64,000 nt of DNA. It comes from Candidatus Nitrosopumilus sp. GTDB taxonomy: Archaea > Thermoproteota > Nitrososphaeria > Nitrososphaerales > Nitrosopumilaceae. The stretch lies in NCBI GenBank assembly GCA_025699075.1, contig JAILWG010000003.1, positions 124,001 to 188,000 on the forward strand, in the 5' to 3' direction. This document shows positions 57,276-58,282 of this stretch, in pieces. Every line of letters starts with the position of its first letter. Within the stretch, counting starts at the first letter, position 1. The position numbers were made by a program, and so were the translations under genes. The notes under the pieces are model-generated. The model had not been told where the DNA came from and searched no databases. It saw nothing but the letters and a program-made list of their open reading frames with translations.

Positions 57276-58118
57276 TTACTTTTCTATCTTCAGTGCGTAA
57301 TCTAGCATTAAGGAAGGAATGTCTACTTCACAAACTCTTACTGTGTTCTTGTATTCTGTTGTGTTGTTTACTTCGTGAACAACTAGTCCTTTCTCATCGC
57401 TTTCCATCAAATCTACACCTACGATATCTCCTTGAATTGCATGTTTTGCTTTTATACACATCTCTTCCATTTCTTGTGTAACCTTGCATGGCTCTGCTGT
57501 TCCTCCAAGTGCCATGTTTGTTTTCCAATGTTTAGATGAACGATAAATTGCTGCAACTATTTTATCTCCTACCATAATTGCTCTGATGTCTCTTGGTGGT
57601 CTTTTTACAAATTCCTCCAAATAATGAACTTGATAAATTGGATACATATTTTCTCTGCTTTCAATGATTCCTTCAGCTGCATCTCTGTCATTTAATTTAG
57701 AAATTAATCTGCCCCAACTTCCAACTGTTGGTTTGATAACTTTTGGATATCCTTGTGAGTCTAATGCTTGCAAAGCTGCTTCTTTGGAAAACGCTACAGT
57801 GGCATCAGGTGTAGGAACTCCGAATTTTTTTAGCAACATATGTGTAAATAATTTATTTCCTGCAAAAACTCCTGTGTTGAGACAATTAATCACCTTGACT
57901 CCAATTCCTTCAAGAGCTGCAGTTGAATGCAAATTCCTGTAGTAACTAACACATCTTTGAATTACAACCCCGTAATCTTCAGGTTTTTTTTCTAAATCTA
58001 TTGCCAATTTCTTACAATCAACCATCTGGATGTTGATGTTCTTTTTTTTGCCTGCTTCTAGTAGAGCTTTTTCTTCCCAACGGATGGTATCGTAAAGAAT
58101 GGTAACGTCAGGATTCAC
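57276..58118 (-). CDS. lysX: LysX/ArgX-family ATP-grasp ligase (copy 1)
   Basis: VIKPTVGSWGRLISKLND, RPPRDIRAIMVGDKIVAAIYR, GLVVHEVNNTTEYKNTVRV; GTG start overlaps lysW TGA (GTGA). Confidence 0.9.
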   Translation of the reverse strand: MNPDVTILYDTIRWEEKALLEAGKKKNINIQMVDCKKLAIDLEKKPEDYGVVIQRCVSYYRNLHSTAALEGIGVKVINCLNTGVFAGNKLFTHMLLKKFGVPTPDATVAFSKEAALQALDSQGYPKVIKPTVGSWGRLISKLNDRDAAEGIIESRENMYPIYQVHYLEEFVKRPPRDIRAIMVGDKIVAAIYRSSKHWKTNMALGGTAEPCKVTQEMEEMCIKAKHAIQGDIVGVDLMESDEKGLVVHEVNNTTEYKNTVRVCEVDIPSLMLDYALKIEK

Positions 58119-58282
58119 TGTCCCCAATCCTCGCCAACCGTTTGGGCAGGCTTAAGATCGAAACCGTTTGAACCTTTAGCTAATTCAAAACTTGCGCCAC
58201 ATTCCGGACATGTTACGATTTCCCCTTCAAGTGCATCACTTGGTACAGAAATATCTGCATCACATTCTTCACATTTTGACAT
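58115..58282 (-). CDS. lysW: LysW amino-group carrier protein, copy 1, C-terminal ...EDWGQ
   Basis: MSKCEECDADISVPSDALEGEIVTCPECGASFELAKGSNGFDLKPAQTVGEDWGQ; two CxxC knuckles. Confidence 0.92.
   Translation of the reverse strand: MSKCEECDADISVPSDALEGEIVTCPECGASFELAKGSNGFDLKPAQTVGEDWGQ

Follow-up and report, generated by a model that had tools for sequence, protein, structure and literature searches.

A LysW Amino-Group Carrier Encoded With a C-Terminal Glutamine in Nitrosopumilus and Other Archaea, a Possible Pro-Form Matured to Glutamate

The lysW1 Locus

The characterised amino-group carrier proteins of the LysW/ArgW type end in glutamate, and the gamma-carboxyl group of this residue is the point of attachment (PMC10433800). 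Here, we describe a 64,000-nucleotide stretch of Candidatus Nitrosopumilus sp. (contig JAILWG010000003.1; this whole stretch is called the window below), in which a lysW gene, lysW1, encodes a C-terminal glutamine instead, and this ending is kept in most of the related loci and is present in several other archaeal families. The explanation favoured here is that the glutamine form is a pro-form, which would be deamidated to glutamate before loading. The gene and its last codon are located as follows:

58115..58282, minus strand: lysW1, amino-group carrier ending GEDWGQ (NF041070, 88.7 bits, curated cut-off 75)
58118..58120, minus strand: CAG codon, a C-terminal Gln replacing the attachment Glu (read from the sequence; kept in relatives)

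The open reading frame (ORF) of lysW1 encodes 55 amino acids (MSKCEECDADISVPSDALEGEIVTCPECGASFELAKGSNGFDLKPAQTVGEDWGQ), with two CxxC knuckles and the EDWG tail, and its 3' end reads GGC GAG GAT TGG GGA CAG TGA, so both the terminal Gln and the intactness of the gene stand as originally predicted. NF041070 is the profile of the LysW/ArgW carrier (PF21344); the Thermus-type equivalog TIGR01206 gave 30.4 bits, under its cut-off of 53.2. Because the C-terminal codon is CAG and the Glu that supplies the gamma-carboxyl is not encoded, LysW1 is regarded as a variant-type LysW homologue and not as a canonical E-type carrier. A sequencing error at this codon, which had been offered as one explanation, is excluded: 105 of the 111 related loci (some of them duplicates) have a Q codon, the preceding Gly codon varies synonymously, and Q is widespread among the relatives rather than unique to one assembly. 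The Q-coding loci include those of the isolates Nitrosopumilus salaria BD31 (L105) and Nitrosarchaeum sp. BD3 (L093), and the remaining six, all from one Nitrosopumilus subclade, encode E. The GAG codon located five codons before the lysW1 stop, at the start of EDWGQ, is invariant, even synonymously, in 111 Nitrosopumilaceae sequences, and the GAGG at this position may serve lysX1 as a ribosome-binding site.

The genomic partners expected of a carrier, LysX and LysYZJK, are present. The cluster has the order argW-argX-lysY-lysZ-lysJ-lrp-lysS-lysW1-lysX1-lysK-dph5, which is kept wholly or partly in genomes of three families. The predicted operon with lysS (upstream) and lysK (downstream) was found, as was the 4-nt GTGA coupling to a LysX-family ligase: GTG 58118 is a possible start of lysX1 and overlaps the lysW1 stop. 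The copy at the window edge ends GEDWGE, also as claimed. The other genes are:

56145..57272, minus strand: lysK, M20-family [LysW]-lysine/ornithine hydrolase, proposed LysW-Q deamidase (best PDB match 5xoy, LysK)
57276..58118, minus strand: lysX1, ATP-grasp ligase of the LysX (aminoadipate) type, GTG start over the lysW1 stop, GSWGR intact (TIGR02144, 329 bits)
58305..59522, minus strand: lysS, homocitrate synthase-like, start perhaps further downstream (profile match)
59589..60008, minus strand: LysM/Lrp-type regulator (NF040947, 191.6 bits, cut-off 180)
59995..61182, minus strand: lysJ/argD aminotransferase, common to both carriers (profile match)
61169..61972, minus strand: lysZ/argB [LysW]-aminoadipate/glutamate kinase (profile match)
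61975..63021, minus strand: lysY/argC reductase (profile match)
63050..63907, minus strand: lysX2, ArgX-type ligase, GGFKTN where lysX1 has KHWKTN (sequence and profile match)
63907..64000, minus strand: lysW2/argW, 3' part only, the gene running past the window; ends GEDWGE (sequence)

The KHWKTN motif of lysX1 is close to that of Thermus LysX, and the signature motif of SaArgX contains Gly-Phe (PMC10433800), as does the GGFKTN motif of lysX2. These sequence features suggest that lysX1 encodes the aminoadipate ligase and lysX2 the glutamate ligase. The Dph5-like gene adjoining lysK (window positions 55108-56145) encodes 345 amino acids, of which the diphthine synthase model spans only the first 250; the remainder is an extra C-terminal part, and the gene stays beside lysK in both f1 (the window's own family, identified as Nitrosopumilaceae from its locus names) and f8.

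Distribution of Glutamine and Glutamate Endings

In a DNA scan of 401 genomes of the class, DWGQ followed by a stop codon was detected in 267 genomes and DWGE followed by a stop codon in 312. Within the class, the Q ending was limited to f1, f2, and f8, the last two probably being other ammonia-oxidising families, and all other families had E only. That Q is peculiar to ammonia oxidisers was rejected, since a scan of the wider phylum revealed true LysW proteins with a Q end in f32, f37, f55, and f58; genera g118 and g134 each include both Q-ending and E-ending species. Two DWGQ matches were discarded, namely a second one in G043, where the following codon is TGG and not a stop, and one in G432, which belongs to an unrelated ORF. 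The 251 distinct LysW sequences comprise 142 with a terminal Q and 109 with a terminal E, with no third residue at this position, and a scan for terminal codons beginning with A or T gave chance-level matches only. Matches to a Thermus query (bacterial) ended in DWGE in 86 of 91 cases, the other five being variants or extensions not ending in Q, and all 29 matches to a Thermococcus query ended in DWGE. A literature search did not find the string EDWGQ, and the string EDWGE gave no LysW paper describing a Q form.

It was originally suggested that Q might track the lysS-linked copy. This describes most of f1, where the lysine copy has Q and the arginine copy E, and part of other families. Exceptions within f1 are G097 and G183 (g27), with Q in both copies, and G127, G248, G024, G031, and G020, with E in both. 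Another f1 genome, G174 (g31, a single contig of 3.2 Mb), has a sole LysW of the E type that resembles the arginine copy, and the lysine copy may have been lost there. In f8, both copies have Q in genera g44, g53, g55, and g59, only the arginine copy in g45 and g49, and only the lysine copy in g43. Since the arginine copy, both copies, or the sole copy carries Q elsewhere, Q does not generally track the lysS-linked copy. The idea that Q marks the lysine copy alone was rejected because the arginine copy ends in Q in several genera. Insulation of two carriers from cross-loading is likewise unlikely as the general reason for Q, given the genomes in which Q is present in both copies or in the only one.

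Several genomes have Q-type carriers only. In genus g8 (f8), argW is gone and one Q-ending carrier is left; the loss is regarded as real because three g8 genomes (G043, G141, and G147; loci L241, L242, and L243) are complete single contigs, with one Q-LysW beside LysX, ArgX, and full LysYZJK. One carrier common to ArgX and LysX is also the arrangement in Sulfolobus, whereas the relatives of g8 have two carriers. The two g27 genomes with Q in both copies have no lysA homologue. In most listed genomes of f32 and f37, a single LysW ending in Q lies next to the LysYZJK genes, and no lysA-family match above the cut-off was obtained in the f32 and f37 genomes examined (G519 gave a weak partial match), so there is no sign of the diaminopimelate route in these families. 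Judged from these gene inventories, Q-type carriers must be loadable and functional, because such genomes have no other carrier. The argument is weaker for f8 and f2 alone, where genomes (G043, G141, G147, G155, G173, G177, and G037) encode a LysA-like decarboxylase, scoring below the family cut-off, that the tested f1 genomes lack.

The two endings were exchanged at least 13 times (Fitch parsimony on the tree of LysX partners, a count in which the argW of G097 and G183 and the f58 cases are not fully included), in both the lysine and the arginine paralogues. The exchanges proceed by single C/G changes, and both CAG and CAA are used as Q codons. These repeated switches provide natural matched pairs.

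Partner Enzymes of the Q-Type Carriers

Five independent contrasts between Q-type and E-type carriers were compared for changes in LysX. No alignment column followed Q/E in more than three of them, and the three columns that did so in three contrasts are themselves variable. The closest contrast lies within Nitrosopumilaceae; there, LysX has no fixed Q/E difference and LysK shows one conservative F/Y change near the N-terminus. No co-evolving LysX residue that would explain Q was found across the contrasts, and the ligase apparently meets the same carrier end in both cases. In the lysine-type LysX of ammonia oxidisers and of f3, residue 168 (lysX1 numbering), next to the invariant Glu169, is Glu where all other LysX/ArgX sequences examined have Gln, and residue 93 is His, replacing Thr/Ser. 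Both residues were rejected as the cause of Q, being common to f3, an E-ending family.

All 28 genomes examined for LysK have it, among them each of the Q-only genomes in that set. The window LysK scored 280 bits with TIGR01902 (cut-off 163) and 281 bits with the stricter NF003367, below its cut-off of 363. It is a clear homologue of PDB entry 5xoy (E 4e-53), and the M20 metal-binding and catalytic positions are conserved (H72, D74, D96, E126, E127, E150, and H341). The f32 and f37 genomes G514, G460, G494, and G419 each contain two to four LysK-like genes, and the release of lysine and that of ornithine might be divided among them.

Proposed Maturation of the Glutamine Ending

LysK ends each cycle of the pathway by cutting the gamma-amide between the terminal Glu of LysW and lysine or ornithine. 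Besides Glu itself, Gln is the only residue from which hydrolysis gives Glu, and it is the simplest gamma-amide of Glu; the bond in the normal substrate of LysK is the same, with a larger leaving group, which makes LysK the candidate deamidase. In the proposed mechanism, LysW1 would work as an amino-group carrier whose gene specifies a pro-form, with Gln at the C-terminus; hydrolysis of the gamma-carboxamide would give Glu before loading; LysX would then load the mature carrier at its gamma-carboxyl, as it does in the known pathway; and one active site of LysK would serve both for deamidation of the pro-form and for release of the conjugate. Deamidation before loading, as the original prediction suggested among other possibilities, is the best fit among the proposed mechanisms to the distribution, the restriction to E and Q, and the unchanged ligases: given that the carrier works, that its gamma-carboxyl is the attachment point, that only E and Q are tolerated, and that the ligases are unchanged, the Gln is most simply deamidated first. 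Deamidation by some enzyme is thus probable. For the complete explanation, in which LysK is the enzyme, we estimate a probability of about 0.5; LysK fits because the enzyme has to be available in several unrelated lineages, as LysK is. No mention of such a Gln-to-Glu step in LysW was found in the literature searched.

A separate amidase encoded elsewhere could produce the same Glu, after which loading would be canonical. The distribution evidence applies to it equally, and an amidase restricted to certain lineages would account for the occurrence of Q in only some archaeal lineages despite the general presence of LysK. It is nevertheless rather unlikely, as Q arose independently in f1/f2/f8, f32, f37, f55, and f58 and the enzyme would be needed each time; no amidase lies within the conserved cluster, and the Pup_ligase/Dop (Dop/PafA) family had no member in 15 genomes. 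Attachment without deamidation, by activation of the alpha-carboxyl of the terminal Gln or by an exchange replacing the amide nitrogen, has some precedent in the RimK-family relatives of LysX, which make alpha-linked glutamyl products (according to the family names), and in an engineered Dop/PafA hybrid that used Pup-Q directly (PMC7947786). We consider loading of LysW-Q without conversion to Glu distinctly improbable: neither LysX nor ArgX has changes linked to Q, and both retain GSWGR and the invariant positions; an unused side chain should permit residues beyond the two observed; and LysZ, LysY, LysJ, and LysK are common to E-type carriers in the same cell, where two linkages to the same downstream enzymes would have to coexist.

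Removal of the amide by LysX itself, through a latent glutaminase-like activity, would make use of a protein that is always present and mostly coupled to lysW. The partners of Q-type ArgW, however, are ordinary ArgX sequences, and we know of no ATP-grasp ligase of the LysX family that does so; this route is very unlikely. Archaea form Gln-tRNA via Glu-tRNA(Gln), and a useful fraction of the carrier, needed in catalytic amounts only, might be made with Glu through incomplete amidation. Such leakiness would not favour retention of Q, the same tRNA route operates in archaea where no Q is seen (Thermococcus-type matches), and it deserves still less credence. Least probable of all is that LysW-Q is a regulator, a decoy, or a zinc protein and not a carrier. 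An unprocessed, blocked gamma-carboxyl would abolish loading, and the argW E54A mutation in Natrinema resulted in arginine auxotrophy (PMC10433800), but LysW-Q is the only LysW in the three complete g8 genomes and in f32/f37, where the pathway is otherwise complete and, in the latter two, no lysA match exceeds the cut-off.

Several points weigh against maturation by LysK. Every LysW organism tested has LysK, but no Q was seen among the Thermus/Deinococcus-type and Thermococcus matches; Q may therefore require an additional permissive factor. Neither ancestry nor mechanism is common to Dop and LysK (phosphate-dependent versus metal hydrolysis), and a primary amide may be unacceptable to M20 enzymes as a substrate. 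In f1, the codon changed twice, compared with about nine neutral C/G changes expected by a crude estimate (61 C/G changes, 35 fourfold sites, 19% C+G occupancy); by this estimate, Q in Nitrosopumilaceae is exchangeable but not free, and a simple model of equivalence after processing leaves the excess retention of Q there unexplained. Either this retention or the lack of Q in the samples from outside the Thermoproteota-type archaea could be due to a regulatory advantage of maturation or to an amidase specific to certain lineages.

Comparison With Known Systems

The LysW pathway has been described as Glu-dependent, and a Gln encoded across most ammonia-oxidising archaea, which rank among the most abundant archaea on Earth, points to either an unrecognised maturation or a new loading chemistry in an essential pathway. 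The system of the window shares with LysW/ArgW of Thermus, Sulfolobus, Thermococcus, and Natrinema the CxxC knuckles, the EDWG tail, the GSWGR-bearing LysX/ArgX, and the LysZ, LysY, LysJ, and LysK genes, the last homologous to Thermus thermophilus LysK (5xoy) with conserved M20 positions; unlike these carriers, LysW1 encodes a terminal Gln.

The only LysK activity known to us is the removal of lysine or ornithine from LysW, and deamidation of LysW-Gln is a proposal. The precedent invoked for Gln-to-Glu maturation in the original prediction was the right one, as Dop uses one mechanism for both the deamidation of Pup-Q and depupylation (PMC7947786). Each system combines a small carrier that ends in Gln with an ATP-dependent ligase for the gamma-carboxyl of a terminal Glu and with a hydrolase that cuts the gamma-amide, and in both the Q and E forms are natural. 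The components of Pup-Q/Dop/PafA are non-homologous, LysX being an ATP-grasp enzyme, LysK an M20 metallo-hydrolase, and LysW a zinc protein, and maturation by the conjugate-cutting enzyme is a feature of Dop that is proposed for LysK by analogy only. If LysK is a true deamidase, the LysW system would have independently reached the logic of Dop and Pup, in which one hydrolase serves for both maturation and release.
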